DNA of 64,000 bases, from assembly GCF_000177675.1 (NCBI RefSeq), contig NZ_ADGX01000011.1, positions 1-64,000 on the forward strand. The letters are read 5' to 3'. The stretch is from Parafrankia sp. EUN1f. GTDB taxonomy: Bacteria; Actinomycetota; Actinomycetes; Frankiales; Frankiaceae. Shown here one piece after another: positions 32,715 through 57,016 of the stretch; the stretch's first letter is position 1; each line of letters begins with the position of its first letter. The position numbers and the translations under genes are program-made. The notes beneath the pieces were generated by a model. It did no database searches and had not been told where the DNA came from. It was given only the letters and a program-made list of their open reading frames with translations.

Positions 32715-33731
32715 GTGCGTGTAGTGATAACCGGTGGCGCTGGATTCGTCGGCAGCCATCTCTGTGATCGGCTGTTGACCGAGGGGCACCACGTCATCTG
32801 CCTCGACAACTTCCTCACCGGCAGACACTCGAATGTAGCGCACCTACAGAGCGAGCCACGTTTCCAGTTGCACTGCCAGGACGTCACGGATTCCGTTGAA
32901 GTGGACGGCCGGGTGGACGCAGTACTTCATTTCGCCTCGCCCGCCTCGCCCGTCGACTACCAGAATTTTCCGCTGGAAACTCTGCGGGTCGGCGCCCTCG
33001 GCACCCTGCACACGCTGGAACTGGCAGAAAAGCATGGCGCCCGGTTCGTTCTCGCCTCAACTTCCGAGGTCTACGGCGACCCAGCGGTGCACCCCCAGCC
33101 GGAGACATACTGGGGAAATGTGAATCCGATCGGCCCACGCAGCATGTACGATGAGGCAAAACGCTATTCGGAAGCGCTGACGACCGCCTTTCGCGCGACG
33201 AAGGGGACGAACACCGCTATTATCCGCATCTTCAACACCTACGGTCCGCGCATGCGCCAGGATGACGGCCGGGCAATACCGACGTTTGTAACCCAGGCGT
33301 TGAACGGATACCCGGTCACGGTGGCCGGCGACGGCCGACAGACCCGGTCGGTGTGCTACGTGGACGACCTCGTCGAAGGCATCGTCAGGACGCTGGCCAG
33401 CGGCGTCGCCGGGCCGCTGAACATCGGAAACCCGCATGAGATGAGCGTTCTTGAGCTGGCCCGCCTCGTCATCGACCTGTGCGGCGCCGACGTACCGATC
33501 GTCTTCGTGCCCCGGCCCGGGGATGATCCGATGGTTCGGCAGCCGGATATCCTTCGCGCCCGCACCGAACTCGGCTGGAACCCTACGGTCGACATCCAGA
33601 ACGGACTCCTGCGCACCATCTCGTGGTTCAGGGCAGAGGCTGTCGCGGCGGCGTCTCCCATGACGGACGTGCCGCTCCCTCGCCAGGAATCCGCTCAGCC
33701 GGCACGCGCGCCACAGACCCCGGGCGGTTGA
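32715..33731 (+). CDS. UDP-glucuronate decarboxylase (UDP-xylose synthase)-like SDR
   Basis: A 338-residue extended [11 protein letters not shown] (7-14) binds [13 protein letters not shown] carries the catalytic Ser/Thr, and Tyr145-x3-Lys149 (YDEAK) is intact. [19 protein letters not shown] is characteristic of UDP-glucuronate decarboxylases, which make UDP-xylose from UDP-GlcA. No UDP-glucose dehydrogenase is nearby unless the 8774 enzyme is broader than assumed. Start GTG with AGGAGG 6 bp upstream. The last 25 residues are a Pro/Arg tail. Confidence 0.88.
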
Positions 33732-38136: not shown

Positions 38137-39384
38137 TCAGACGGCCTGGTCGATGGTCGCCTCCGCCAGCACGTCGGTGACGAGATCCGCCCAGTGGTGC
38201 ATGTCAGCGGGCTCGAGGGTCGGGTGGACGAGAAACGCCAGCGATGTCCGGGCCAGGTCGGCGGCGGCCGGCAGCGCACGGGCGGGTCGCCACTCGACGG
38301 GAAAGGCCTCCTCGCGGTAGACCTCGCCGCAGCTCCCGACGCTGCACGGGACCCCGACGGCGGCCAGGGCCGCCAGGATTCGGTCCCGGTCCCATCCGTC
38401 GCGCAGGTACTCCGGTCGGACGAACGCGTACCAGCGGTAGTAGGCGTGTTCGACCCACGGCGGCGGTGTCGTCGTGCGCAGGGCGGGCAGGTGACCGAGA
38501 CGTTCGGCGAGGATCGCCGCGTTCCGGCGGCGTGCGGCGAGGTCGGCCGGCAACCGCGGTAGGGCGGCCCGCCCGACCGCGGCCGCTATCTCGTGCATCC
38601 GCGCGTTCGTGCCGAACGAGTCATGCAGCCAGCGGAATCCGGTGCCCTGGGCAGGCTCATGCGCCTTGCTCCAGTTCTTGCCGTGGTCCTTGTAGGACCA
38701 CGCCGCCTGATACAAGGCCGGATTCCTGGTCGTGATCATCCCTCCTTCGCCGGCGGTGGTCAGAATCTTGTCCTGGCAGAAGGACCACGCCGCCACGTCG
38801 CCCCAGGAGCCGACAGGGCGCCCGCACAGCCGCGCGCCGTGCGCCTGTGCGCAGTCCTCGACGACCGCGATGCCGTGCTCGCGCGCGAGTTCGAGCAGGC
38901 TCCTCATCTCGGCCGGCCACCCGGCGAGGTGCACCGCGACGATGGCCTTGGTGCGCGCGGTGAGCCCGGCCAGCACGGTCCGCGCGGTGAGATTCTGGGA
39001 GTCGGGGTCCACGTCGACCACGACCGGTCGAGCGCCGAGCGCAACGGCACAGCTCGCGGACGCGATGAAGGTACGACTCGGCACGATCACCTCGTCGCCC
39101 GGCCCGACCCCGAGGACCCGCAGTGCGATCTCGAGCGCAATCGTTCCGTTGGACACGGCCACGCCGTACTCGCAGCCGACCGCTGCCGCGAACTCCTCCT
39201 CGAATCGACGGCCCTGAGTGCCGGTCCAGTAGTTCACCGCGCCGCTGCCGAGCACCTCGACGGCGGCGGCGACCTCGGCATGACCGAAGACAGGCCAGGT
39301 GCCGCGCACCGCGCTCTCCTGGGGGACGACGGCCTGGGCTGGCAGTCTCGCCGGGGCCAGGCCGGTGGGCGTGGACTCGGTCAT
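38137..39384 (-). CDS. DegT/DnrJ/EryC1/StrS sugar aminotransferase
   Basis: A 415-residue PLP enzyme that transfers an amino group to a keto-sugar nucleotide. VEDCAQ (Asp177) holds the PLP ring nitrogen and Lys206 in WSFCQDKILTTAGEGGM is the Schiff-base lysine. SNGTIALEIAL binds phosphate. It overlaps the sugar transferase stop by 4 bp (ATGA). The usual partner 4,6-dehydratase that makes the keto sugar is not in the window. Together with the PglC-like and NeuD/PglD-like proteins it points to an N-acylated amino sugar. Confidence 0.93.
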   Translation of the reverse strand: MTESTPTGLAPARLPAQAVVPQESAVRGTWPVFGHAEVAAAVEVLGSGAVNYWTGTQGRRFEEEFAAAVGCEYGVAVSNGTIALEIALRVLGVGPGDEVIVPSRTFIASASCAVALGARPVVVDVDPDSQNLTARTVLAGLTARTKAIVAVHLAGWPAEMRSLLELAREHGIAVVEDCAQAHGARLCGRPVGSWGDVAAWSFCQDKILTTAGEGGMITTRNPALYQAAWSYKDHGKNWSKAHEPAQGTGFRWLHDSFGTNARMHEIAAAVGRAALPRLPADLAARRRNAAILAERLGHLPALRTTTPPPWVEHAYYRWYAFVRPEYLRDGWDRDRILAALAAVGVPCSVGSCGEVYREEAFPVEWRPARALPAAADLARTSLAFLVHPTLEPADMHHWADLVTDVLAEATIDQAV

Positions 39385-40253
39385 GCGACGCCTCCGGCCA
39401 GCACACGCGGCGGTGGGCGCTGGCCGTCTCCGGTCCGGTCAGCGCGCAGGGGCGCTGTGGCGCGCGGGTGGCCGCGACGCCGGCGAGGATGCGATCCGGC
39501 TGCTGGCGCGCAGCGGCATCCGCCCTCGCCCTGGCAGTTCCCGAAGTCCTGGGTGACTCCGCTGGCGCCGTAGGTGCCGTCACCAGCCACCGCCGTCAAC
39601 AGGGCACGCCAGAGGATGACCAGGTCAAGACGCAGGCTCCAGTTGTGGATGTACCACAGGTCCAGTTCGATCCGGCGATTCCAGCAGATCTGGTTCCGGC
39701 CGTTGACCTGGGCCCAGCCGGCGATTCCAGGGTGGACCTGGAGCCGGCCCATCTGTCTGGCGGAATATCGGTTCACCTGGCTCCGGACCGTAGGCCGGGG
39801 CCCGACAAGGCTCATCTGCCCAGCCAGGACGTTGAGTAGCTGGGGTAGCTCGTCGATGCTCATCCTGCGGAGCACGCGCCCGACCCTGGTTGTCCTCGGG
39901 TCGTCCTGCCCTGCCAGCAGCCCGAGTCCGGTGTGCTCGGTTCCTACTGTCATCGTCCGCAGTTTGAGCATCGTGAACGGTTCGCCGGCGACGCCGACTC
40001 GCTCCTGCCTGAACAGGACCGGGCCGCCGTCGTCCACCTTGATGGCGACTGCGGCGACGGTCAGCACAGGCGCGGCCACAGCGAGGCCCGCCAGGGATCC
40101 GACGATGTCGACTGCCCGCTTCACGCCTGGAAGGGGCAGCGGCTCGACGGATGGGGGTGACCATCCGACGGAGGGCTGCGTGGCCGGGTCCGCTGGCGAC
40201 GCCGCGGGAGGAGCTGAGCGCTGCCGAGGTATCGCGACCGTAGTCATGTCCAC
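39381..40253 (-). CDS. Initiating sugar transferase (PglC/WcaJ C-domain type)
   Basis: A 290-residue monotopic phosphoglycosyl transferase moving a sugar-1-P to undecaprenyl phosphate. The re-entrant helix is near residues 45-70 (KRAVDIVGSLAGLAVAAP). VLFRQERVGVAGEPFTMLKL, the catalytic SIDELPQLLNVLAGQMSLVG with its Asp-Glu pair, and HPGIAGWAQVNGRNQICWN are all present. It lacks the four-helix CoA-binding-like N-domain of full WcaJ. The last 60 residues are a Cys- and Arg-rich tail of unknown use. It is the second initiating enzyme of the locus. Confidence 0.93.
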   Translation of the reverse strand: MDMTTVAIPRQRSAPPAASPADPATQPSVGWSPPSVEPLPLPGVKRAVDIVGSLAGLAVAAPVLTVAAVAIKVDDGGPVLFRQERVGVAGEPFTMLKLRTMTVGTEHTGLGLLAGQDDPRTTRVGRVLRRMSIDELPQLLNVLAGQMSLVGPRPTVRSQVNRYSARQMGRLQVHPGIAGWAQVNGRNQICWNRRIELDLWYIHNWSLRLDLVILWRALLTAVAGDGTYGASGVTQDFGNCQGEGGCRCAPAAGSHPRRRRGHPRATAPLRADRTGDGQRPPPRVLAGGVA

Positions 40254-40382
40254 ACGAGAAACTTACTATGAGTAAGATCATTGTTACGTCAAGAGGTCGC
40301 GGTACCCTAACGGAGAGTCAGTTTGAATCACCATGTGTAGCGGAGACCGTCGTACAGGCACGGCACCGGCCGTGCGGAGGGG

Positions 40383-41174
40383 ATGAGAACGTTGCTCCGA
40401 AACCGGCTGTTCCACGCGAAGGCGGCATCGGATGTCGCACCTGCCACCGGGCTCGCGACCGGCTACGCGCGCCTCATCCAGCGCGGCTCCCGAGGCGCCG
40501 CGCTGGCCGCCTCCTGGACCAGGATCATTCTGGTGCGGATGACGCAGCCCGGAGTCCAGGTGGGGTTCGACTCCTTCATCGGGCCCGGATGCACAATCCG
40601 CTGCGCTCCCCGCGGCACGATGGTCATCCGGCGCACGGTCCTCATCCGAGATGTCCAGCTCGAGGCCGCCGACGGAGCGCTCCTCACCCTCGACACGGCC
40701 TATCTCGCCGCCCATTGCGTGGTGGTGGCCCGCCAGCGGGTGGCCGTCGGCGCCGGCAGCCTACTGGCCGAGATGAGCGTGGTCCGCGACCAGGATCACG
40801 TGGTCGGGCCCGGCGTCCCGGGTATGGCGATGCTGTTCTCCGCGACGCCGGTGACACTCGGCCGCAACGTGTGGATCGGCGCCAAGGCCACTGTGCTGCG
40901 GGGCGTGACCATCGGCGACGATGCGGTGGTCGGGGCGGGCGCGGTGGTGACCAGGGATGTACCGCCCGGGGCCAGGGTCGGAGGCGTGCCAGCGGTGCCG
41001 TTGGGCACGTCTCGCCCCGATGCGGCGCCTGCCGATGAGCGGGATGATGTCCCGGCCGCCGCGGTCCCGGCCACCGCTGCCGCCCCAGCCGTTCTGCCTG
41101 CGCCGCGCTCCGCGGTGCAGCCGATCTCCGCAGCACGAGCGGGCTCCGCGACAGCCTCGCAGCCGGACTCCTGA
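40383..41174 (+). CDS. Hexapeptide-repeat (LbetaH) acyltransferase
   Basis: A 263-residue protein with a left-handed beta-helix of hexapeptide repeats from about residue 60 to 200, ending [20 protein letters not shown] and [20 protein letters not shown], the classic NodL/LacA-type end. The hydrophilic Ala/Pro tail after residue 205 is unusual. It probably acetylates a sugar of the repeat unit. Divergent from the sugar transferase gene. The ribosome site GGAGGGG touches the ATG closely, so a start a few codons downstream is possible. Confidence 0.85.
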
Positions 41175-41226
41175 CACGGAGGAACGTCACACCGTGAGCA
41201 CCCTGACCCGGGCGACAGGCGAGTAG

Positions 41227-41260
41227 GCCGGGCGGGTCGCTGACCCGCCGCCCGCCCGGC
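41227..41260. terminator. Bidirectional hairpin between two acyltransferase genes
   Basis: GCCGGGCGGG (41227-41236) pairs perfectly with CCCGCCCGGC (41251-41260). An alternative inner stem GGCGGGTC/GACCCGCC also fits. It lies between convergent stops at 41174 and 41262. Confidence 0.65.
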
Positions 41261-41261
41261 A

Positions 41262-41840
41262 TCAGCTGTGCTCGAACAGCTCCTGCAGCCGCCGGTGCTT
41301 CTCCTGCTCGGGCAGCCGGCCGGTACCCACCGAGGCGGCGAGAGTACGGGCGCGGAAGTCCGCGCAGGATCCCACGACCCGCGCCGGCACCCCGGCCACC
41401 ACCGATCCCGCGGGGACGTCCCGGTTCACCAGCGCACGCGCGCCGATCACGACGTCGTCGCCGATGGTCACCCCGGGCATGATGAGCGCACCGAGCCCGA
41501 TGAAGACGTTCGACCCCACGATGATCGGGGCGACGACATCAGCCTCCGGATGATCGTCACGCAGAACCCAGACAGCCCCGTCGTGCGTCACGAACCTGAC
41601 CTCGGCCGCGACCACCACGTGGTCGCCAAGGCGGATCAGGTACGGCTCACTACCGAACGTCGACCCGCTGACGCCGATCAGCCGGCAGCGGTCACCCAGG
41701 CGGACCCCGATCCGCCGGGCGTAGCCGATCGGGTCCGTCCGCTGCTGGTAGCGCAGGTGAAGGGCGACCGGGGCCCGGCGGGCGATGCCGACGAGGCTGT
41801 CAATCCTGCGCTTCGGGCGCTGGTACCCCTGCTCGGTCAC
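41262..41840 (-). CDS. Hexapeptide-repeat acyltransferase
   Basis: A 192-residue LbetaH protein. Repeats run from about residue 45 and finish with NVFIGLGALIMPGVTIGDDV and ALVNRDVPAGSVVAGVPARV. The His of VTHDGAVWVLRDD is a likely catalytic residue. Start is GTG 41840. In the corrected reading of the upstream GT4 gene the stop overlaps this GTG by 4 bp. It is the last gene of the second Wzx/Wzy operon. Confidence 0.88.
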   Translation of the reverse strand: MTEQGYQRPKRRIDSLVGIARRAPVALHLRYQQRTDPIGYARRIGVRLGDRCRLIGVSGSTFGSEPYLIRLGDHVVVAAEVRFVTHDGAVWVLRDDHPEADVVAPIIVGSNVFIGLGALIMPGVTIGDDVVIGARALVNRDVPAGSVVAGVPARVVGSCADFRARTLAASVGTGRLPEQEKHRRLQELFEHS

Positions 41841-43071
41841 TGCCTGTGCTCCAATCTCGACGATCCGGCGACACGGCGTGACGATCCGGCGGCGCCCAGG
41901 ATTGCGTCGGCGATATATCTGCGGTTCTTCTCCTGATCGAGCAGCTCCTCGGCCCGCTCACGCGCGGCCTGCCCGCGCCGAGCCAGACCGTTCGCACCGG
42001 TCCCCCCTGCAGCGCCGCCTGGTGCAGCTCGAAGGCCGCGCGCACGGCGACCGTGAGGGCCGCGGGATCACCGGGCGGCACCAGCCAGCCGTTGTGGTCC
42101 TTCACCAGCTCCGGCAGCCCGCCCACGGCCGACGCGATGCTCGGCACCGCGCAGGCGGACGCCTCCGCCACGGCGCCGTAGTTCTCCGACAGCGACGGGC
42201 TCACGCTCACGTCAGCCGCCGCGTAGAAGGGACGCACATCCTGGGCGGGGCCGGCCCAGACCACCGAGGCGGCGCCGGGCAGCCCCGCCGCCCAGGAACG
42301 CAACCGGTCACGGTAGGCCTCGCCGCCCGGGCCGTGCCCACCGCCGACCAGCACCAGCGTCGCGGGCCCGGAGCGCGACGCGAACCGGGACCAGGCCTCG
42401 AGCAGGACCTCATGCCCCTTGATCCCCTGCCCTCGGTGCACCAGCCGCTTCGGCGGGTAGAAGTAGGCGACGCAGACGGCGACGAAGGCTGACGGGTCCA
42501 GGCCGAGCTCCGCCCTCGCCTTCGCCCTGGCAGCAGCGCCGGGCGGGACGAACGACACGAGGTCGACGCCGTAGGAGGCGGTCGGCAGCCGATCCGGGCG
42601 CACGCCGAGGGCGAGGTAACGCTCACGCAGGTGCCCCGACGAGCAGACAACCAGGTCATCCGCCCGGGCGAACCAACGCTCCACCAGCTCGATCAGCCGG
42701 TTCTCCAGGTAGAGCGGCCCCGCCACCATGTGCACCCGCGCCGGCCGCCGGCTCGGGCCGCGCCCGAGGGAGGCAAGCCGCGCGAGTACCGCGGAGGCGT
42801 ACAGGTGGTAGTGCAGCACATCCGGGTCGAGCTCGCGCAGCAGCGTACGGAGCTGCCACACACCGGCTGCCTGCCGCAGCGGCGAACGCGACGGCACCGG
42901 CGCCGGACTGCGGACGACCCGGATGCCGCGCTGGGCGCAGCGCCGCGCGAGCGCGCTGTCCTCCTCGGGAAGCAGCACGACCACCTCGTGACCGTCGTCA
43001 GCCAGCGCCGTCAGGATGGGGATCGTCCACAGGCAGCCGTTTCCGGTCTTCAGAACAGTCACGATCCTCAT
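41800..43071 (-). CDS. GT4 glycosyltransferase with apparent -1 frameshift near the 3' end
   Basis: ATG 43071 (MRIVTVLKTGNG) overlaps the methyltransferase stop as ATGA. The GT-B core is complete: DVLHYHLYASAVLARLASLG, FYPPKRLVHRGQGIKGHEVL, SPSLSENYGAVAEASACAVP. After LHQAALQGG (the six-C run at 42002-42007 on the plus strand) the frame as given reads PVRTVWLGAG and an unlikely Arg/Ser/Pro tail to 41800. With one more G the frame reads TGANGLARRGQAARERAEEL and LLDQEKNRRYIADAIL, a normal GT4 C-terminal helix. It then stops at 41837-41839, overlapping the next GTG by 4 bp. The gene as it stands is therefore probably frameshifted; a sequencing error is equally possible. Confidence 0.82.
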   Translation of the reverse strand: MRIVTVLKTGNGCLWTIPILTALADDGHEVVVLLPEEDSALARRCAQRGIRVVRSPAPVPSRSPLRQAAGVWQLRTLLRELDPDVLHYHLYASAVLARLASLGRGPSRRPARVHMVAGPLYLENRLIELVERWFARADDLVVCSSGHLRERYLALGVRPDRLPTASYGVDLVSFVPPGAAARAKARAELGLDPSAFVAVCVAYFYPPKRLVHRGQGIKGHEVLLEAWSRFASRSGPATLVLVGGGHGPGGEAYRDRLRSWAAGLPGAASVVWAGPAQDVRPFYAAADVSVSPSLSENYGAVAEASACAVPSIASAVGGLPELVKDHNGWLVPPGDPAALTVAVRAAFELHQAALQGGPVRTVWLGAGRPRVSGPRSCSIRRRTADISPTQSWAPPDRHAVSPDRRDWSTGSDRAGVPAPEAQD

Positions 43072-44102
43072 CACCGGCCCGCCTCTCGGCCGCCGCCGCC
43101 CCGTTCCCCGCTGCCACGTTCCCCGTGCTGCTTCCCGCCCTGCTGTTCGCCTTCCGGACGGCGCGCGACCCAGATGCAGCTGGCCCCCCACCGGCGGAGC
43201 ACGGGCAGTTTGTCGACGGTGAGGCCGAGCGGCCGGCTGATCGATCCCGGCAGCTGACCAAGCCACGGCATCGACCAGGTGGCGAGCGTGAGAAGGGTTC
43301 CGTGCAGCCTGACGTCCACCACCTCGAAGCCGAGGCCACGCAGAATCGCGGACATCTCCTCCGGTGCGAAGGCGTACTGGTAGAAGTCCTCCCATTCGTC
43401 CGGTTCCACGGCGGGAGCCACGTCCGGTCCGTTCTCAAAGAGATGTCGCCGGCGCTGCAGATATTCGTTCAGGCACGGCGTGGACACGATCGCGACCCCA
43501 CCCGGCTTCAGGACACGGTAGGTCTCCGCGAGTATCCGCTCCGGGCCCTCCGCGAAGTGTTCGCACACCCCCGGTGAGTAGACGGCGTCGTAGCTGCCAT
43601 CAGGGCAGTCGAGTTGTCGGACGTCCCCCGACCGCAGTGGCACATCGGGAAGCAGTGCGCGAATCCGGGCGAGCGTCTCCGGGGCCCAGTCGACGCCTTC
43701 CGCCGCGAAACCACGGGCCCGAGCCGCGACGGTGAAGTGCGCCAGGCCGCAGCCTGCTTCGAGGACCCGCCCGCCTGGAGCCGCCCAGGTCAGGAAGGTG
43801 GACCGCAGCTGATGAGGCAGGTGTCCGCGCCGGCTCCGGCGATACGACAGACCGATGTCCTGCCAGACGCCATCCCAGTAGGCCGCATCCGCCTGCGCCG
43901 AGAAGTAGGCGAGCCGGCCGCCGTGGGCTCCTGGCAGCCACACCACTCGGAATCCCCTGACCACCGAGGCCGCGCCCGGTCGGCGGACGCCGCGTCGCCG
44001 GATCCCGCTGGTGCCGGCGCCGGAAACGGCCCGGCCCGGCCCGCGGTCGATCTCACCCGGGTCGGCGGCACCGGATCGGACCGGGGTCCGTTGAGCTGGC
44101 AT
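43071..44102 (-). CDS. Class I SAM-dependent methyltransferase
   Basis: A 343-residue protein. GRVLEAGCGLAHFTVAARAR is the SAM loop, GSYDAVYSPGVCEHFA motif IV, and VLKPGGVAIVSTPCLNEYLQ follows. The N-terminal 75 residues are basic and poorly ordered; an ATG is used at 44102 but the true start may lie downstream. The C-terminus is Gly/Glu/Arg-rich. The gene sits between the flippase (65 bp away) and a GT4 (ATGA overlap), so it probably methylates a glycan intermediate. Confidence 0.85.
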   Translation of the reverse strand: MPAQRTPVRSGAADPGEIDRGPGRAVSGAGTSGIRRRGVRRPGAASVVRGFRVVWLPGAHGGRLAYFSAQADAAYWDGVWQDIGLSYRRSRRGHLPHQLRSTFLTWAAPGGRVLEAGCGLAHFTVAARARGFAAEGVDWAPETLARIRALLPDVPLRSGDVRQLDCPDGSYDAVYSPGVCEHFAEGPERILAETYRVLKPGGVAIVSTPCLNEYLQRRRHLFENGPDVAPAVEPDEWEDFYQYAFAPEEMSAILRGLGFEVVDVRLHGTLLTLATWSMPWLGQLPGSISRPLGLTVDKLPVLRRWGASCIWVARRPEGEQQGGKQHGERGSGERGGGGREAGR

Positions 44103-44167
44103 GGCGGGCTCCCCCTGTATGTGAGCTGGAATCGACGGCCGGCGCGACGCGACGGACGGAAATGTGG

Positions 44168-45691
44168 CTAGGTGGTGCCAGAAGGCTCCGGTCTGGTCGG
44201 CGCGAGACTCATCGGCTCGTCGCCGGTCCCCCGGGGCTCGCGGGGATCATGGGGCACGTGGGGATCATGGGGCACGTGGGGATCACGCGGCACGTGGGGA
44301 TCGTGGGGATCGCGGGCCATCGCGGCTCTGGTCCACAGGCTGACGACCCCATAGGCGATCAGGCTCGCCCACGCCGCGCCCACCATGCCCGCCGCCGGAA
44401 TCAGGATGACATCAGCGGCCGCGACCACGGCGAGACCGACCAGGCCCGCCGCGCCGCACGCCTTGGTCCGGCCCTGACCGCTCAGGACCCGGGCATCGAT
44501 CTGGAAGGCCACCAACAGAAGCTCGGCGACCAGAAGCACCCGTAGCGGTGTGACCGCGCTCCGGTAGGCATCGCCGAAGAAGAACAGGACAAGGTGGTCC
44601 GCGGCGAGCCACATGAGCGCGGCGACCCCGGCCATCACCGCAAACACGCGAACCAGCTCGGCGAACACAGCTCGGGTGCCCATCGTGCCGCTGGCCACCC
44701 GGTAGCAGAGAACCTGGCCCCAGGAGGACGGGACAAGCCGGAGAACCTCACTCGCGGTCGCCGCAACGCTGTAGATGCCCACGGCCGACGTCCCCGACAT
44801 CACCCCGATCAGGTACCGGTCGAGCCGGAACGTCATCGACATCGCGGTGTTCATGCCGAGCGCGGGAACGCCCGTCCGGATCAGCAGCGCGGACGCGGCA
44901 CGATCCAGCTGGGGCCGGGTCACCAGACCCGCCCGCCGCAGGAGAAGGAACCCGGCGACGCACTGGAAGGCGCCCGCGACGACGGACACCGCGAGAACCG
45001 GAGCTACTCGCAGCGTCCCGGCCGATACCTGCAGCCCGACCAGGGCCGCCAGCTGCGCCAGGCAACCCGCCGTGTTGACGAGGGCCGAGGCGATCACCTG
45101 GCCGACCGCGTTCAACGTGTCGATCAGCTGGATGCTCAGCAATGTCGACACGGACAGCAGCCCGGTGAGCACCAGAATGCCGGGACCCCGCTCGGGCGCG
45201 TCCGCCAGCCAGAGGGTCGGCCCCACGATGCCGGCGGTAAGCAGGCACTGCGGCACCAGGAGCAGCAGGCTCAGCCCGAGTACGTGGTCGACCGAGACCC
45301 GCGGGTCCGTGCGCCCGAGGTAGTACCGAGCGGAGGTACCCGTACCCAGAGCGACGAACATCCCGGTGAGACCGGTGACCGTCAGGATCAGGACGAGCTC
45401 GCCCCGGCCCTCGACGTCCAGGGCGCGTGCGGTCATGACCGCGACGACCAGGTTCGTCAACGCAGCGCCCAGCGCCGCAGCGGAGACGGCGACAGCGGGG
45501 CCGGCGACGCCGGACGCCCGCGCCGCGGAGCGCCCGGCCCCACGCGAGACCGCCCGGTGGCGCCCGCTCGGGGAAGGTGGCTCGGGATGAACGTCGCCCC
45601 CGCCGGCAGCATCACCGGCAGCACCATCGATGGCGGAACCGTGCCCGGCAGGCAGAACAGTGCCGGCGCCGACCCGGCGCACCCCGCTCAT
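44168..45691 (-). CDS. Wzx-like flippase with DPHVPH repeat tail
   Basis: A 507-residue MOP-family membrane protein with about 12-14 helices; SAAALGAALTNLVVAVMTAR is the first helix and MSMTFRLDRYLIGVMSGTSA a typical mid motif. ATG 45691 overlaps the polymerase stop as ATGA. The C-terminus leaves the membrane as AMARDPHDPHVPRDPHVPHD and further DPH-type repeats, a His/Asp/Pro-rich tail not usual in Wzx. It pairs with the polymerase upstream as the second export module. Confidence 0.87.
   Translation of the reverse strand: MSGVRRVGAGTVLPAGHGSAIDGAAGDAAGGGDVHPEPPSPSGRHRAVSRGAGRSAARASGVAGPAVAVSAAALGAALTNLVVAVMTARALDVEGRGELVLILTVTGLTGMFVALGTGTSARYYLGRTDPRVSVDHVLGLSLLLLVPQCLLTAGIVGPTLWLADAPERGPGILVLTGLLSVSTLLSIQLIDTLNAVGQVIASALVNTAGCLAQLAALVGLQVSAGTLRVAPVLAVSVVAGAFQCVAGFLLLRRAGLVTRPQLDRAASALLIRTGVPALGMNTAMSMTFRLDRYLIGVMSGTSAVGIYSVAATASEVLRLVPSSWGQVLCYRVASGTMGTRAVFAELVRVFAVMAGVAALMWLAADHLVLFFFGDAYRSAVTPLRVLLVAELLLVAFQIDARVLSGQGRTKACGAAGLVGLAVVAAADVILIPAAGMVGAAWASLIAYGVVSLWTRAAMARDPHDPHVPRDPHVPHDPHVPHDPREPRGTGDEPMSLAPTRPEPSGTT
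44242..44313. repeat. 18-bp tandem repeat in the flippase 3' end
   Basis: Units GGGGATCATGGGGCACGT at 44242-44259 and 44260-44277 are identical, 44278-44295 has two changes, and 44296-44313 is more diverged. On the minus strand they encode DPHVPH repeats. Confidence 0.9.
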
Positions 45692-47325
45692 CGGGAGGCC
45701 AGCGAGCGCAGACCGGTGCTCGTCCGCTGAGCCCCCCGCATCCTCCGCGACCCGGGCAACCCCTGCGGCCCGGGCAACCCCTGCGGCGCCAGTCTCGCTG
45801 GCGGCGCAGAGTCGTTCAGGCTGCCGGAGCCCACCCGCGGGACATCGCTCCACCGGCCGGGCGAGGCCTTGCGCCACCAGTGCCCGGCCGCTCGGACCGC
45901 GACCAGCACAACGGTGCCAACCAGGACCTGCATCGGCAGCGGGGTGAAGTCGTTGCGCACCCCGATCAGGAGCGGCACGAGGAGGACGCTGCAGGCCGCG
46001 TCGGTCCACCTCGACCGCCAGCCGTCGAGCCAGCCGCACAGCAGGCCGATCACGAAGAGGATGGCCACCACGCCGGGAACGCCGAAGTTGTAGTAGGCCT
46101 CGGCGATCGGAGAGCCACCGATCGGCCCGGATCGTTCCCGAATGACCGTGTTGAACAGCCGGTCATCGATCTCGGCCGGTGGCTGCGGGATTCCGAGCAC
46201 GCGCCCTTCGATGATGCGGGCAAGCTGACCGGTGTAGGTCCGGCCGCCCGCCGCGGGTTCGCCGTACCCGTCTCGCCAGGCGACCGCCTCCGCTACGGGA
46301 CGAAGCGACGCCCCCATCTCAGCCAGACCGTCGAGGGGTCCGAAGCCGATCTGGCTCAGCGTGACCTCGGCCAGGCCATGCTGACGGATGTCCCGAAGCG
46401 CCCCGACGGCACTCAGGAGGACGACTCCCGCCAGCAGCGCGGCCCCCATCCCGGTCCAGCGGCTTGGGCCACGGCCAGCGGCTTCAGCCGGCGGAAACGA
46501 GGGGACGTCGCCGGACCGGCGCATCATGTGAGCCACGGCGGCCGCAGCCACGGGGAACAGGATGGTCCCCCGCATACCCAGTGGCAACGCGATCAGCGCG
46601 AACAGCCCGAACATCAGGTAGCCCGCCCGTCGCAGCCGCCGCCCGCCATCGACGGTCAGCAGCATGAGGCCGAAACCCAGACCGAAATCCAGATAGGGAA
46701 CCAGCGGATCGCGATATGCCAGGGCGATCAGGTCCTCGTACGATCCGAACAGCAGGCCGCTCCCGCCAGCCCGCCTGATCAGCAGGAGCATCAGGCTGAT
46801 CGAGGCGGCGAGAACCGCGAATCCGACCACGCCGGTCGCAGCCGACCTCGTCGGCGGTGCAGGCATGTCGGCAGGCGTGTCCGTACCGGTCGACCGGTCG
46901 CGGTGCACCCGGCCAGTCGAGGAAGCAGGCAGGGACATTCCCACCGCGGCAGCTGCCACGCCGATCGCCGCGATCGTGAAAATCCGTCCTGTCGAGACGG
47001 ACAGGATCCAGTCGAAACCGAGCTGCCCGTCGCTGGAGACCAGTGGGCGGTGCAGCGCGAGCGGCAGCGCGAGCCCGAAATGGAACAGGACCAGCAGTAC
47101 GAGGTAGACCGCCGAACACGAGAGGACGCCCTGCGTCCGGGCCCGGACGCAGAGCGCGATGAGGCACCCGAGCACGCCGAAGGTCACCGCCGCGACCCCG
47201 GCCGGAGACAGTGCCGAGATCTCCTCCGAGAACGCCAGCAGTGCTGCGAGAATGCCGCCGGCGCCCAGCCGGAAGGCCAGCACGCGCGGGCTCGCGCCGA
47301 AACCGACGGGCACGCCGGTTGTCAC
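45688..47325 (-). CDS. Wzy-like polysaccharide polymerase
   Basis: A 545-residue membrane protein with about twelve helices and a large outer loop (roughly 330-430) containing GGRTYTGQLARIIEGRVLGI and IGGSPIAEAYYNFGVPGVV. The latter resembles the periplasmic-loop end of O-antigen polymerases. GTG 47325 is chosen because it overlaps the stop of the GT4 gene upstream as GTGA. It differs clearly from the polymerase at 24172. Confidence 0.78.
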   Translation of the reverse strand: MTTGVPVGFGASPRVLAFRLGAGGILAALLAFSEEISALSPAGVAAVTFGVLGCLIALCVRARTQGVLSCSAVYLVLLVLFHFGLALPLALHRPLVSSDGQLGFDWILSVSTGRIFTIAAIGVAAAAVGMSLPASSTGRVHRDRSTGTDTPADMPAPPTRSAATGVVGFAVLAASISLMLLLIRRAGGSGLLFGSYEDLIALAYRDPLVPYLDFGLGFGLMLLTVDGGRRLRRAGYLMFGLFALIALPLGMRGTILFPVAAAAVAHMMRRSGDVPSFPPAEAAGRGPSRWTGMGAALLAGVVLLSAVGALRDIRQHGLAEVTLSQIGFGPLDGLAEMGASLRPVAEAVAWRDGYGEPAAGGRTYTGQLARIIEGRVLGIPQPPAEIDDRLFNTVIRERSGPIGGSPIAEAYYNFGVPGVVAILFVIGLLCGWLDGWRSRWTDAACSVLLVPLLIGVRNDFTPLPMQVLVGTVVLVAVRAAGHWWRKASPGRWSDVPRVGSGSLNDSAPPARLAPQGLPGPQGLPGSRRMRGAQRTSTGLRSLASR

Positions 47326-48494
47326 TGATCCCACAGGCTGGTCATGCCGCGCCGCCACTGGTCCATCACGAACGGGGAGGAGGAGAACGCACGAAGTGCC
47401 TTTACACGCTGCGCCGACGTGGGCGGTGCGGCCAGCATGCCGGCCGCGGCCTCGGCCCAGGCCTCGGCGGCGCAACCTTGCGGCACCGTCGTCACGCCGT
47501 CGAGCAGGCGGCCGATCTCCACGACTCCGGGCAGGTCCGGAGCAAGCACCGGCGTGCCCACGGCGCAGGCCTCGAGGACGACGGTCGGCAGTCCCTCGTG
47601 CCGCGAGGTCAGCAGCAACAGGTCAGCACCAGCCATCAGGCCGGGGATGTCGAACGACTCGCCGGGCAGGTCGAAGGCGTCGGCGACCCCGCCGAGCTCG
47701 GCCCGGCGACGCAGCTCCGCCGACTCGCGTGCATCCTGGCGCCCGACGATGCGCAGCCGGGCCGGAACACCGCGCCGCCGCAACGCGATCAGAACGTCAA
47801 CCGCGGCGCTCCGGTTCTTCACCGGGTCGGGCCGCCCGACGTGCACGATGGTGGGCCGCCACTCGGCCGCCGCCGTGGAAGCGACGGAGGCAGCGACGAC
47901 TGTGGCGGCTGTGGAGGTGGTGACGAGCGCGCGCTCGAACGGTGCCGGGTCCAACCCGTTGTAAAGCACCCGGCAACGACGCTCCCGCTGCCAGTCCGAC
48001 CGCCACAGGCTGGTCATCGTGGCCTCGGCGACCGCGACGAGGTCGGTGGCGCACCAGTCGATCAGCCGCCGCATCACCGCGCGCTGGACACGTCCTCGCA
48101 GGCTGGCACCGTGGCGGTCGCCGGTGCTGTGAAAGTGCGCCACCCGCAGCGGCACACCGGCGGCCCTCGCGATCAGCAGGACCGCTCCGGAGAAGGTGGC
48201 CACACACGAATGCACGACGTCGGGTCGCAGTGCGCGCAGCAGGCGGAGGAAACGCACCGGAAAGCCCAGGTCGAGGCGACAGGGGTGGACCGAGCCGCCC
48301 AGCGAACGGATCTCCCCCGCCAGGGCGCCGGGACGGCCGGTGAGGGTGACGAAGACGAACCTGTAGCGATCCGGGTCCAGATTGCGCATCAGGTCGACGG
48401 TGCGCAGTTCGGCGCCGGCCCGGTCCATGACGCCGAACACGTGCAGGACCGTACGGGGCCGCGGGCGCGCGGACGCCCGGTCCGCGACACTCAT
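47322..48494 (-). CDS. GT4 glycosyltransferase, paralogue of the 7033-8517 gene
   Basis: A 390-residue GT-B enzyme. TVLHVFGVMDRAGAELRTVD is the acceptor-side loop, HSCVATFSGAVLLIARAAG and VLYNGLDPAPFERAL follow, and SRHEGLPTVVLEACAVGTP carries E-x7-E. It has only about 14 residues before the core, while its paralogue has about 115. An Ala/Thr/Val-rich insert lies after ERALV. ATG 48494 and the end both overlap neighbours by 4 bp. Confidence 0.9.
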   Translation of the reverse strand: MSVADRASARPRPRTVLHVFGVMDRAGAELRTVDLMRNLDPDRYRFVFVTLTGRPGALAGEIRSLGGSVHPCRLDLGFPVRFLRLLRALRPDVVHSCVATFSGAVLLIARAAGVPLRVAHFHSTGDRHGASLRGRVQRAVMRRLIDWCATDLVAVAEATMTSLWRSDWQRERRCRVLYNGLDPAPFERALVTTSTAATVVAASVASTAAAEWRPTIVHVGRPDPVKNRSAAVDVLIALRRRGVPARLRIVGRQDARESAELRRRAELGGVADAFDLPGESFDIPGLMAGADLLLLTSRHEGLPTVVLEACAVGTPVLAPDLPGVVEIGRLLDGVTTVPQGCAAEAWAEAAAGMLAAPPTSAQRVKALRAFSSSPFVMDQWRRGMTSLWDQ

Positions 48495-49770
48495 CGCCCG
48501 GGCCTGACGAACGGTTCGGCGGTTTCGCGGGGGCGGGCCCGGCGCTGCGCCGGCGTGGCGGCCGCCGCGGTGACTTCTCGCAGCGTCTGATGAAAGGAGA
48601 GGATGACCGGTCGGATCGTCTCGAAGGAGTGCTCCCGCGCGGTTGCGAGGTTGCGCTCGGAGGCGGCGCGGTACCGGGCCGGGCTCGCGATCAGCTCGCT
48701 CAGCGTCTCCGCGAGCCGCCTGGGATCATCCGGCGGCACGAGGTCGCTCGGCGGCAGGAACTCGACCACGCCCCCACCGCGGACGCGACCGCGGGCAGCG
48801 CCCGGGCAGCGGCCTCGGCCAGGACCCGCGGAAGGCCCTCGGTTCGGGACGGGAGCACGAACACATCCGCGTCGTCGAGCGCCGCTCGGACCTGCGCACG
48901 GCTGCCAAGCCAGCGGATGAAGCGCACGTCCCCGCCGAGGCCGCGGGCCACCGCCCGCCGCACGATCTCGTCGTGATGCCGGCCGTCACCGACGATGGTC
49001 GCCATCACCGGGAGGCCGTTGGACCGCATCAGCGCCACCGCGTCGACGAGGACGTCATGCCCCTTGTACACACGTTCCTGCGAACCGATCGTCAGAAGGC
49101 GGACCGGTCGGCCGGGGCGCGAGTGCCCGGGCCCGGTCGTCCCCCACTCGCCGGGGGCTCGGCGGGGTAGCGGAACGAAGTCCTCGTCCTCCAGCAGCGA
49201 CCCAGGGCAGCTCATCATCGGCACGCCGGGGCGGGCCGGGTACCTGCTCTGCAGGACATTCCGCGTGACATAGCTGACGGCGTCGGCGCTGCGGCACTGG
49301 CAGGCGAGCAACTGGCCGGCGAGCAGCGCGGCAGGGCGGTGGTCAGCGAGCACCTCGGCCACGTCTCCGACGACCTCGAGCCCGAACGGAACCCGCCGGC
49401 GCCGGAGCTCACTCAACAGAACCGTGCCGACCAGGCCGGGAACCCGCGCGACGAAGGCGGTGTCCGCGGCGGGACCGTGGAGTTCGGCGACCGCTCGACG
49501 CAGCGCGCCGCGCAGCGCGGGCCAGCGGCGTGCGTAGGCCGCGACGCCCTGGAACGTCGGCAGCGGCAGCACGCGGACGCCGGCGCCCTCCACGGGGATG
49601 CCGTCCTGGTCGCCGGCCGCGCCGCGGGCCACCCGGGCGGCGAGCAGCACTTCGTCGAAGACACCGAGATAGCTGGCCCAGGTCGGGTAACCGGCGGCGG
49701 GGTTCGGCGTCAGCACACGGCCGTCCTCGTTCTGCTGCAACCTTGCTTCGGTGGCGACAACGATCCGCAT
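48491..49770 (-). pseudogene. GT4 glycosyltransferase split by a -1 frameshift
   Basis: ATG 49770 (MRIVVATEARLQQNEDGRVL) starts a GT-B enzyme with LLTIGSQERVYKGHDVLVDA and SRTEGLPRVLAEAAARALP. After AVASAVG, at the run of five C at 48771-48775 (plus strand), the frame shifts and ends at 48700. The natural continuation VVEFLPPSDLVPPDDPRRLA lies in another frame and runs to the stop at 48491, overlapping the next gene by 4 bp. One extra G restores about 425 residues. As given, the product lacks its C-terminal 85 residues. A sequencing error cannot be excluded. Confidence 0.8.
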
Positions 49771-49910: not shown

Positions 49911-51284
49911 TCAGGTCAGGCAGGCAACCGCATCCTTCTGGTCGGAACAGACCTTGTTGAGCAGGTCGATCTGGTCAACCTGCGCCGACAGCCCGATCGG
50001 ATCGTCGGAGACGGCGTAGATGTTCGCCACGCTCACCTGGATGACCGAGTAGGCGGGCAGCGTCCCGCCGGGGTAGAGCACGGGACCGGTCAGCACGAGC
50101 TCGAGCGCCCGAACACTCAGCGACGTGGCGTCGGAGATCTGCCGGTTGACGAACAGCACGCCGACCCCCGGGATGGGAATCTCGGTACCCGGGTCAAGTG
50201 GCCCGACGTACGGCACACCGGCGATCGCCAGATCAGCGATGTTCGTACCGGTCGAGTCGAACGTCGTGGAGCTGCCGTCGTAGTGCGCGTTGGCCTTCGC
50301 CGTGACCGCACCCGCGGTCACCAGACCGCCGAGCAGGCTCACCCCCGCGATGGTGCTCGTGGTGGAGCCCGATGAATCCGGGCTTCCGACCGTGGCCTCA
50401 CCGGTCTCCGTGATCGCGCCGACCGTGATCACCCCCGGGATGTTGATCCCGAGCGAGGTGTCGGTCGAGGTCCCGCCCGTGCAGGGCACGCCCGTCGCGG
50501 CCAGAGGTCCGACGGTGAGCGGTCCCGCGGACACCAGGTTGCTGTAGGCGACCCCGGAGATGATCACCGGCAGCGGCGGCCGGAAGAACGAGTGGGAGTA
50601 ACCGATCGTGATCGAGGTTCCCGCGAGCGGCCCCAGGGTGATGTCGAGCGAGAGTCCGATCGTGACGAGACCGGCGTTGCCCGGGACGGGGATCTGCCGG
50701 TTGACCACCAGCGAGCCGACTCCCGGGATGGCGATCCCGGTGTTCGGCGCGACCACCCCGTTCAGGATGGTGATGCCGCTGAGCTTGAGGTCCGTCACCG
50801 TCACAGAACCCGTCGAGGTGACCGTCCCGTCGGCCGCACTCGTCGCCGTCGTGGTGATGTCAATCGCGTCGGCGGAGATCAGGGGAAGGAGGGGGGTACC
50901 GAGCAGGTCCAGGCCGAGGAGCTGGCTGGTCGAGGTACCGGTCTGCACCGGCCCGACAGCGAGCGTCGACACGGTGTTGGTGCTCGCTCCCGCGCTCAAC
51001 GAGAGTCCCGGGATGGACACCGCGCCGCCGTTCGAGCGGCTCACCCCACTGGCTGTCGTGCATCCGAGGCCCTCGGGGAAGGTGGCCCCGGAGTCGATCA
51101 CGCCACCGACCGTCACCTGGGTCGAGTAGGCGAGCTGGTCGTACATGGCAGGGGGGGACGCCGCCGTGGCGCTCCCTCCGGTCAGAACGATCGTGCCACC
51201 CGCGACCGCGGCGGCGACGATCCCACTGACGGACCGGGCGAGCCTGAACCTCCCGCCACGGCATCTCACTTGCACTTCGCGCAT
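49911..51284 (-). CDS. Secreted choice-of-anchor-type protein with internal duplication
   Basis: A 457-residue exported protein. The signal peptide spans residues 1-42 (Arg-rich start, hydrophobic GIVAAAVAGGTIVLTGGSA, ATA-A cleavage). The rest is Gly/Thr/Ser/Val-rich and predicted beta-structure. Two halves are related: each ends with GIAIPGVGSLVVNRQI or EIPIPGVGVLFVNRQI after a TLKL/IAGV-type segment. This resembles actinobacterial choice-of-anchor proteins. No LPxTG sorting signal is visible. It lies inside the polysaccharide locus and may bind or present the polymer at the surface; this is inference. Confidence 0.75.
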   Translation of the reverse strand: MREVQVRCRGGRFRLARSVSGIVAAAVAGGTIVLTGGSATAASPPAMYDQLAYSTQVTVGGVIDSGATFPEGLGCTTASGVSRSNGGAVSIPGLSLSAGASTNTVSTLAVGPVQTGTSTSQLLGLDLLGTPLLPLISADAIDITTTATSAADGTVTSTGSVTVTDLKLSGITILNGVVAPNTGIAIPGVGSLVVNRQIPVPGNAGLVTIGLSLDITLGPLAGTSITIGYSHSFFRPPLPVIISGVAYSNLVSAGPLTVGPLAATGVPCTGGTSTDTSLGINIPGVITVGAITETGEATVGSPDSSGSTTSTIAGVSLLGGLVTAGAVTAKANAHYDGSSTTFDSTGTNIADLAIAGVPYVGPLDPGTEIPIPGVGVLFVNRQISDATSLSVRALELVLTGPVLYPGGTLPAYSVIQVSVANIYAVSDDPIGLSAQVDQIDLLNKVCSDQKDAVACLT

Positions 51285-53181: not shown

Positions 53182-55368
53182 CTAGCCCGTCAGCCGATCC
53201 TCGTGCACCAGCTGGCCGGACAGGCGTCGCCCTCCCGTGTCGACGCGCTGTGAGCCGCGATGTGCCCGCGATCGTGGTGAAGGGCCGCGCACGCCGATCT
53301 TCAACGGCGCGGTGTTCGGTGGAACCGGCGTGCCGGTCAGATCGGATCCGCCTGCCATCGGGGCTACCGCTGCGGTCGCCGTGAGCGAGGTTGCCTCGGG
53401 AACGGGCTGCGGGAACACACCGGCGCCCGGCGCCCCGGATGTCACCTTGATCGGCCCTGTCATCGCCGGCTCGCCCACCTGCGGCGGCCGCCGGAGACGG
53501 TCATCCCATTCCTTCAGCCAGCTCAGCACCCGCTCCCCCGTCATCGGGCGGGAGACGAAATAACCCTGCGCCTCGTCGCACTGCCAGGCGGCGAGTGAGG
53601 CCCACGAGCGCGACGTCTCGACGCCCTCGGCCACGATGCGCAGGCTCAGGGCGTGTGCGAGGGAGACGGTGGATCGGACGATCTCCGCCGCGGAGGGGTC
53701 CCGATCGATGTCACGCAGAAAGCGCTGGTCGAGCTTCACCTCGTCGGCCGGGAGCTCGAGCAGATAGGCAAGGGAGCACAGCCCGGTGCCGTAGTCGTCG
53801 AGGCTGACCCGCACACCGTGGTCACGCAGGCCCGCGAGCGTCCGCTGCGCCTTCTCCAGAACCGTGATGAGCCCGTCCTCGGTGACCTCGACGACCAGGG
53901 CCGACGGGGGCAGGCCATGGAGCTCCAGCTCCCCGCGTACCAGGTCGACGAATCCTGGGTCGACGATGACCGAGGCCGGCACGTTCACCGACACCGCGAG
54001 CGTGGCCCCGGCCGCGCGCCACCGAACACAGTCGGTGAGCGCCAGGTCGAGGACACGCCGGGTCAGCAGCTCCATCAGACCCGCCCGCTCCATCTCGGGC
54101 AGGAAGAGGTCCGGCGGCCGGAGGCCTCCGGTGGGATGCCGCCAGCGCACCAGGGCCTCGACTCCGCTGATCCGCCCGCTGCGCATGTCGACCTTGGGCT
54201 GGTAACGCAGCTCGATCTGGCCCTTGTCCAGCGCTTCACGCAGATCCGCGCGCAGCCCCAGGCTCGCCCGACTCCCCAGCTGGCAGTCGGGAGCGTAGAC
54301 GCGTTGGCCGCTGTGGGTGCCCTTCGCCGTGTACATGGCTTCTTCTGCTCGCCGCATAAGCTCGAGCACGTTCCGCCCGTGTTCCGGGAAATGGGCGATA
54401 CCCACGCTCACCTCCGCCTGCACGCGCAGGTCGTCGAGGCTGACCGGTGTCCGCAGTGCCTCCCTGATTCGCCGCGCCACCCCCTCCGCGTCGGGGAGGT
54501 CGACTCCGCGCAGCAGTGCCGCGAACTCGTCACCGTCCACGCGCGCCAGCAGATCGTCGGCGCCCAGAACCTGCTGGAGCCGGTCGCTGACGGACCGAAG
54601 CAGTCGGTCACCGTTCTCATGACCGAGTGTTCCGTTGATATCCCGCAGGCGATCAAGGTCAACGAGGATGAGTGCGGCGGGAGCTGCGCCGCCGGCCCGA
54701 TGCCCCCCTCCCAGCCACTGGCCGGCGGTCTTCAGGAAATGCCGGCGGCCCGGCAGGCCGGTGAGGCCGTCCACGCCGCGCCGGCGCCGGCCGAGCAGCG
54801 CGGCCGCTCGGCCGCTGACGCCCAGCACCGGCAGACCGACGGCAAGCGTCGTCGCCAGGGAGGAGGCCAGGATCGCTGGCAGAGTCGACCCGCCGCGGCA
54901 GAGCGACCAGACCACGATGGAGACCAGAAGGACCGGGGCGAGGACGAGTGCGGCGGCGGCCCGATGCGCCGATCCGGGCGCGACGGAACGCCGGGCAGCC
55001 ATCGGTCGGGCGGAAGCGGCGCCGCCGGAGCACGGTGCCGGGTCCGACGGCGGCGTCGACGCTCCCGCCCGCACCGGGCCGGGCGCCTCCACGCCGCCGG
55101 GCACCACGTTTCCCCCCGGACCGGAACAGGCCGTCTCGCCCTCGCCTGCGCCGGCCGTGTCGACTCCTGTCAGCGCAGCGCACGCCGACGGCCCGGACGA
55201 ATGGTTGTGCTCACCCACCAGGTTTCGTTCCGCCGGCGCGTGCGTCGCCGGCGCTTCCGCCGCTGCCGCTGCCGGTACCGGTACCGGTACACCGGCAGGA
55301 CCCGCCGGCAGCCGGCGCGGCACGGTACGCCGCCTGATCGTGCGGTCCACCCGCGCCGAGGTCACCAC
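53182..55368 (-). CDS. Membrane GGDEF-EAL protein (DGDEF variant, intact EAL)
   Basis: A 728-residue protein. After a 130-residue low-complexity start come two membrane helices (about 138-157 and 163-186). The GGDEF domain (200-360) has RVDGDEF at 276-282, with Asp replacing the first Gly. The EAL domain (375-620) keeps EAL (404-406), the Asn of SVNVPAS, VSLDDYGTGLCSL, VKLDQRF, AEGVET and QGYF. Phosphodiesterase activity on c-di-GMP is thus expected, with cyclase activity uncertain. A 100-residue disordered tail follows. It is located between the polysaccharide locus and the sortase, which fits c-di-GMP control of surface polymers. Confidence 0.9.
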   Translation of the reverse strand: MVTSARVDRTIRRRTVPRRLPAGPAGVPVPVPAAAAAEAPATHAPAERNLVGEHNHSSGPSACAALTGVDTAGAGEGETACSGPGGNVVPGGVEAPGPVRAGASTPPSDPAPCSGGAASARPMAARRSVAPGSAHRAAAALVLAPVLLVSIVVWSLCRGGSTLPAILASSLATTLAVGLPVLGVSGRAAALLGRRRRGVDGLTGLPGRRHFLKTAGQWLGGGHRAGGAAPAALILVDLDRLRDINGTLGHENGDRLLRSVSDRLQQVLGADDLLARVDGDEFAALLRGVDLPDAEGVARRIREALRTPVSLDDLRVQAEVSVGIAHFPEHGRNVLELMRRAEEAMYTAKGTHSGQRVYAPDCQLGSRASLGLRADLREALDKGQIELRYQPKVDMRSGRISGVEALVRWRHPTGGLRPPDLFLPEMERAGLMELLTRRVLDLALTDCVRWRAAGATLAVSVNVPASVIVDPGFVDLVRGELELHGLPPSALVVEVTEDGLITVLEKAQRTLAGLRDHGVRVSLDDYGTGLCSLAYLLELPADEVKLDQRFLRDIDRDPSAAEIVRSTVSLAHALSLRIVAEGVETSRSWASLAAWQCDEAQGYFVSRPMTGERVLSWLKEWDDRLRRPPQVGEPAMTGPIKVTSGAPGAGVFPQPVPEATSLTATAAVAPMAGGSDLTGTPVPPNTAPLKIGVRGPSPRSRAHRGSQRVDTGGRRLSGQLVHEDRLTG

Positions 55369-56023: not shown

Positions 56024-57016
56024 CTACCCGCCCGTCAGTTCGGGAGGCGGCCCATCACTCTTGTCTCTCGTCTCATCGAGCTCCGCGAAGACGATGAGTC
56101 GGCTCTTCGCGGAGAAGCGCGGATGGCAGGTCGTCAGCGTCATCCGCGCCTTGGTGGGGGCCTCCCCCAGATGCCCTGGTACGGGGTAGGTCACGTCCAG
56201 CCGGTGGGGGTCGACGATCTCCGATCTCGTGACCCGGTAGGTGAAATACCTGTCGGCGACCTCGACCACGATGGGGTCCCCCACCTTGAGCTCGTCGACC
56301 CGGCTGAAGGGCTTGCCATAGGTCGTGCGGTGTCCCGAGACGACGAAGTTCCCGATCTCGCCAGGCATGGCCGAGCCCGGGAAGTGCCCTGGTCCGCGGC
56401 GCAGGTCCGCCGTCGACACGCCCTCCACGACGACCGGCGCGTAGTCCGTTCCGAAGCGCGGCACCCGTAGCACGGCGATCCCGTCGCCGAGCTCGACGGG
56501 CGGCACGGATGGCCGCTTCCTCGGATCCGCACCGCCGCCCCGCGCCGGCTTCGGGACGGCATGCTGGGCCCAGGCTGTGGTCAGATCGTGGCGGATCTGA
56601 TCCTGCGTTCGAGCAGCGAAGATGTCAGTGATCCACAGCTGGTAGCACAGGAAGAGAACCACGATGACACCACAGGTGATCATCAGCTCGCCGGCGCCCC
56701 GGGCGAGATGGCCGCCAAGAGATCGCACCGTCCGATCCCGCAGCGGGTCCGCTGCCGGCAGCTCCGGGGCGGCGTATCCACGTCCTCGCGCCCGCGCCGG
56801 ACCATATGCCGGTGCCAGACCCTGGGCCGGCACCGCGGCAACAGGTGGATTCCGCGGATCCGGGCCGCCCATCAGGTCGTCGAGGCTGTCGAGGCCGTCG
56901 AGCTCGCCCCGGGCATCGACTTCTCCCCGGTCAGCCCCGGCCAGGTCGGCCGGTGAGGCCGGCGCCGACAGTGAACTGCCCGGTTCCTTGCCCTCGCCCG
57001 GAGTCCCAGCAGCCAT
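56024..57016 (-). CDS. Class E sortase
   Basis: A 330-residue membrane transpeptidase. A 105-residue acidic/Pro-rich cytoplasmic part precedes one membrane helix (about 110-130). The sortase domain holds His229 in VVSGHRTTYGKPF, Cys297 in LTLTTCHPRFSAKSR and Arg306. TTCHPRF is typical of class E (SrtE), which anchors proteins with LAXTG-like signals. No such substrate is evident in the window. It is 21 bp upstream of the cbiO stop codon (the cbiO gene ends at 57038), on the same strand. Confidence 0.92.
   Translation of the reverse strand: MAAGTPGEGKEPGSSLSAPASPADLAGADRGEVDARGELDGLDSLDDLMGGPDPRNPPVAAVPAQGLAPAYGPARARGRGYAAPELPAADPLRDRTVRSLGGHLARGAGELMITCGVIVVLFLCYQLWITDIFAARTQDQIRHDLTTAWAQHAVPKPARGGGADPRKRPSVPPVELGDGIAVLRVPRFGTDYAPVVVEGVSTADLRRGPGHFPGSAMPGEIGNFVVSGHRTTYGKPFSRVDELKVGDPIVVEVADRYFTYRVTRSEIVDPHRLDVTYPVPGHLGEAPTKARMTLTTCHPRFSAKSRLIVFAELDETRDKSDGPPPELTGG

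Follow-up and report, generated by a model that had tools for sequence, protein, structure and literature searches.

The GT4 glycosyltransferase gene that reads as two overlapping frames in the draft assembly of Parafrankia sp. EUN1f is very probably intact in the living strain, and its apparent split is best explained as a homopolymer whose length was under-called during sequencing or assembly. We favor this explanation because the fault is limited to one assembly, is tied to G/C runs, goes one way only and is indifferent to the function of the genes in which it is found. Thus, at this position the living strain would encode a single GT4 glycosyltransferase, as part of a cluster for a surface polysaccharide or exopolysaccharide, the deposited draft would be one base short within the gene, and the same fault would recur at G/C runs in unrelated genes of the assembly.

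Apparent split of a GT4 gene at a run of five G

The window, which is the whole stretch of 64,000 nucleotides that was analyzed, belongs to the genome of a nitrogen-fixing, soil-living bacterium (hereafter G000), and was compared with five other genomes of the genus (G001-G005). The region 39381-49770 of the window is an ordinary polysaccharide assembly set, specifying a surface or exopolysaccharide, with genes for a sugar transferase, an acyltransferase, three GT4 glycosyltransferases, a methyltransferase, a Wzy-like polymerase and a flippase-like Polysacc_synt protein, the last of which scores just under the Pfam cut-off (Table 1). The split gene resembles the GT4 genes (Glyco_trans_1_4/Glycos_transf_1) of Wzx/Wzy-type clusters both in its domain matches, which lie above the cut-off, and in having a sugar transferase, a Wzy-like polymerase, a flippase-like protein, an acyltransferase and further GT4 genes as neighbors; apart from the split there is nothing unusual about it. 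Based on its family and its neighbors, its product most likely adds one sugar to the repeat unit. The GT4 gene is adjoined by a gene for a secreted-looking protein of 457 residues that has no Pfam match (49911-51284), and translations of the region after the cluster read as GGDEF/EAL-like and sortase-like proteins (53182-55368 and 56024-57016). Elsewhere in the window, a stretch of 0.67 kb (32906-33578) is inverted relative to G003 inside an otherwise colinear region.

Table 1. Features of the polysaccharide cluster in the window that bear on the two split GT4 genes
Feature	Coordinates	Strand	Remarks
GT4 glycosyltransferase gene, unshifted reading	48700..49770	minus	356 aa from ATG at 49770; last 20-odd residues out of frame
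Five-G run (coding strand; C on the plus strand), point of frame loss	48771..48775	minus	one base fewer than in G003; no run in G001 and G005
C-terminal 92 codons and stop of the same GT4 gene, other frame	48491..48769	minus	
ATGA overlap of 4 bp between tail stop and start of next GT4 gene	48491..48494	minus	
Next gene, another GT4 glycosyltransferase, intact	47322..48494	minus	390 aa, ATG at 48494
Remaining polysaccharide cluster	39381..47475	minus	bacterial sugar transferase, hexapeptide acyltransferase, methyltransferase, Polysacc_synt flippase-like protein, Wzy-like polymerase
Companion GT4 body	42004..43071	minus	356 residues align with the G003 ortholog (397 aa, intact)
Six-C run, point of frame loss of the companion GT4	42002..42007	minus	
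Companion GT4 out-of-frame tail	41837..41980	minus	33 aligned conserved residues at 41882-41980

From its start codon up to the G run the gene displays both the coding pattern and the GT4 domain; past the run the unshifted frame continues out of phase for about 70 nt, over which it overlaps the frame of the tail, to a stop codon at 48700-48702. The in-frame part, with 73.4 bits, and the intact ortholog of G003, with 92.4 bits, both exceed the cut-off of 27 for the Pfam model Glyco_trans_1_4, a Glycosyl transferases group 1 domain. A preliminary description of this DNA had placed a frame-breaking loss of one G at the run, and this is borne out, with the run being exactly five long and one base short of its G003 equivalent. 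The same description held that the tail, including the motif VVEFLPPSDLV, is intact in another frame and overlaps the next gene by 4 bp: tail and overlap are both present, with the stop codon at 48491-48493, but the tail counts 92 residues rather than the 85 that had been given. The frame switch at the run was also called independently by a coding-frame hidden Markov model (HMM); together with the colinear alignment of the tail and the one-base deficit relative to G003 DNA, this shows that the frame break is more than a chance arrangement of open frames.

Orthologs in the genus

Orthologs occur as single open frames in three of the five other genomes, namely G003 (the nearest relative of G000; 426 aa), G001 (431 aa) and G005 (422 aa), with weak matches only being recovered from G002 and G004; Frankia sp. 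EI5c was the one relative retrieved when genome contigs were searched with the protein. Identity to these three orthologs across the first 332 residues is 97% (G003), 84% (G001) and 67% (G005), and the out-of-frame tail is colinear with the same proteins at 91%, 70% and 58% identity, respectively. DNA alignments show that the C run is six long in G003, whereas in G001 and G005 the sequence is interrupted at this site. Hence, the break is private to G000, and no run is conserved here that might function as a switch or as a slippery site.

This distribution bears directly on programmed ribosomal frameshifting or transcriptional slippage, by which a genuine five-G gene would still yield a full-length product. 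The overlap between the two frames and the conservation of the tail speak for such a mechanism, but each of the three orthologs is encoded in one frame without any need for a shift, and two of them lack the run. We rejected it, as the two-frame layout that it predicts to be conserved is absent from G003, G001 and G005, and we regard it as extremely unlikely.

Constraint on the two parts of the gene was compared through substitution ratios. Between G000 and G003, dN/dS is 0.69 in the tail and 0.25 before the break, a difference that is not significant (9 nonsynonymous and 5 synonymous changes versus 12 and 18; Fisher p = 0.20); the larger share of residue changes in the tail points, though only as a non-significant tendency, to relaxed constraint. 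When measured against G001, the tail gives 0.34 for G000 and 0.34 for G003, i.e. equal constraint. Decay of an older pseudogene was also considered, and dN/dS before and after the break gave no clear sign of it.

Frame breaks across the assembly

The G000 assembly comprises 9,352,740 bases in 396 contigs. We sampled 1.264 Mb of it (the window and 60 stretches of 20 kb), along with 0.88 Mb of G003, 0.141 Mb of G001 and 0.212 Mb of G005; L-numbers below denote sampled stretches. These were scanned with a coding HMM of seven states, one for noncoding sequence and one for each of the six frames, which had been trained on 640 long frames taken from all four of these genomes; a break was called where the coding potential changes frame on one strand, the first frame stays open for at least 45 nt onward and the log-likelihood gain exceeds 15 on both sides. 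This yielded 21 same-strand breaks in G000 (0.960 Mb coding), one in G003 (0.677 Mb coding), two in G001 (0.106 Mb coding) and one in G005. The rate in G000 exceeds that in G003 (binomial p = 1.3e-4); the overall rate in G001, from a small sample of mostly short contigs, is not below that of G000, but none of its breaks is at a run. An earlier and smaller scan had given seven breaks in 0.464 Mb of G000 and one in 0.48 Mb of G003, and the G003 site of that scan (L063) was lost after retraining on the larger sample, with L153 being called instead.

Eight of the 21 breaks in G000 have a G/C run of at least five no more than 12 nt away, compared with 5% of random coding positions (binomial p = 4e-6). 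In contrast, none of the four breaks in G003, G001 and G005 is linked to a run, and eight against none in the three relatives together corresponds to p = 0.004. Judging from their translations, the genes carrying run-linked breaks are unrelated, and include a protein kinase, a TetR-like regulator, a WYL-like regulator and a GT2 protein, among others. The breaks therefore concentrate at runs of equal bases and scatter over unrelated genes in a manner specific to the G000 assembly, as expected of under-calling.

The remaining 13 breaks in G000 are not at runs, and at least two of them are larger, real differences. One of these, L053:13032 (contig 382), is not a run error: about 0.83 kb of G003 is absent within a sulfatase-like coding region. 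The other, L128:16999 (contig 347), affects a gene for a VWA-domain-like protein that is 13 nt shorter than its G003 counterpart, with its frame broken. In translation, the breaks at L110 and L126 read like two neighboring genes each, and those at L127, L129 and L115:1194/1397 fall in regions that seem decayed or odd.

Direction of the run-length differences

An ortholog was available for six of the eight run-linked sites (window 48770, L043, L047, L058, L115 and L134), and at each of the six G000 is one base short at the run; no orthologs of L055 and L132 were found in the genus. At L134 the extra base is present in all five other genomes. The serine/threonine-kinase-like gene at L047:6490-6502 (contig 388) is one base short of G003 at two neighboring G runs. 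At L043, L058 and one of the L047 places the relative does not have a longer run, but carries another base within the stretch; here a substitution would have come first, followed by the shortfall of one base. About 115 kb aligned to G003 revealed two further coding cases, at window 42003 and L042:18744, which had escaped the HMM and are again short. Neither in this alignment nor at the six testable sites did we find a coding run in G000 that is longer than its ortholog. Likewise, the same alignment contains 72 coding G/C runs with conserved flanks and a length of five to seven in G003, of which two are shorter in G000, 70 are equal and none is longer. Single-base differences in stretches called noncoding in the G003 alignment go both ways (22 short and 17 long). 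A listing of all non-triplet indels between the window and G003 could not be used alone, given its noise in intergenic and repetitive stretches. Runs of six G/C bases number 200 per Mb in G000 and 254 per Mb in G003; as the two genomes differ in base composition too, we set this deficit aside as evidence.

If slippage had really removed one base in the sequenced strain or culture not long ago, the change would likewise be private to G000, and the finding that every checked run-linked change is a deletion would be accounted for; the higher dN/dS of the tail against G003, though not significant, also fits a young pseudogene. Actinobacteria mostly lack MutS/MutL repair, and changes in run length may thus go uncorrected in them. 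Yet G003, of the same genus, shows no run-linked break in 0.88 Mb, slippage should lengthen runs as well, which is nowhere seen in coding sequence, and the tail is equally constrained in G000 and G003 when compared with G001. Since G003 has almost no such events and the tail is under equal constraint against G001, a real deletion is improbable. There is only a slight chance that the strain or a cultured line recently underwent one-way base loss at G/C runs that knocked out the two GT4 genes along with several others; were it true, the strain would offer a model system for run slippage that goes uncorrected in an actinobacterium.

The companion GT4 gene

The preliminary description also drew attention to a second GT4 gene of the same operon broken in the same manner, which we recovered at 42002-42007: its ortholog in G003 is intact at 397 residues, and its out-of-frame tail ends in a TGA within a 4-bp overlap with the next gene, which starts from GTG at 41840. 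At the corresponding site of G003 a T adjoins five C, and the window is one base short. As with the substituted sites above, the deficit is not simply a shorter copy of the G003 run, and the absent base may be either that T or one base of a would-be run of seven C. At the run-linked rate, about three pairs of breaks within 10 kb, the size of this cluster, are expected genome-wide, and therefore two breaks in one operon need no special cause.

The G run as a possible switch

Glycosyltransferases of surface sugars are frequent targets of phase variation in other bacteria, and this background favors a reading in which the G run is an on/off switch of the gene. Bifidobacterium breve, a high-GC actinobacterium, switches its pili through slippage in G tracts, of which one is annotated as G11 (PMC9187656). 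The split into two frames at a G run is indeed shared with phase-variable genes of Campylobacter and Neisseria and with these Bifidobacterium pili, but the present run is short and unconserved, and the fault is assembly-wide and one-way. The polyG/polyC loci of Campylobacter jejuni have been listed at tract lengths of seven or more (PMC4965091); measured against that threshold, the run is five long in the window and six in G003, with G001 and G005 lacking it altogether. Furthermore, the same fault is found in regulators and a kinase, and no variant with a longer run was encountered. Under phase variation, long conserved tracts and changes in both directions would be expected; neither is observed, and we consider this reading very unlikely. 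The preliminary description had posed switchable homopolymers and a systematic base-calling problem as the two possibilities; the assembly-wide, short-only pattern speaks for the latter, and the lack of a conserved tract against the former.

Probable under-calling and its precedent

Homopolymer under-calling, in contrast, agrees with the shortness of the runs at all six testable sites and at the two additional coding sites. A precedent is provided by Clostridium autoethanogenum, in which an identical signature was proved by resequencing to result from under-calling (PMC4687164): one-base deletions at runs of about four to eight equal bases, always short, were scattered over unrelated genes and split them into two frames. 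The proof in that case came from Illumina and Sanger data and the platform was PacBio, whereas our assignment draws on the assembly itself, with the platform being surmised. A literature search for the sequencing platform of the EUN1f draft did not find it. A sister JGI Frankia draft, CN3, combined 454 with Illumina data (PMC3622958), and the EUN1f draft would probably date from the period when sister drafts used 454 reads.

Conclusions

Given the eight run-linked breaks found in 0.96 Mb of coding sequence, the whole 9.35-Mb assembly can be expected to contain several dozen others. Where the EUN1f draft shows a gene broken at a G/C run, as in the two GT4 genes of its polysaccharide cluster, the break should hence not be taken for a pseudogene or a switch.
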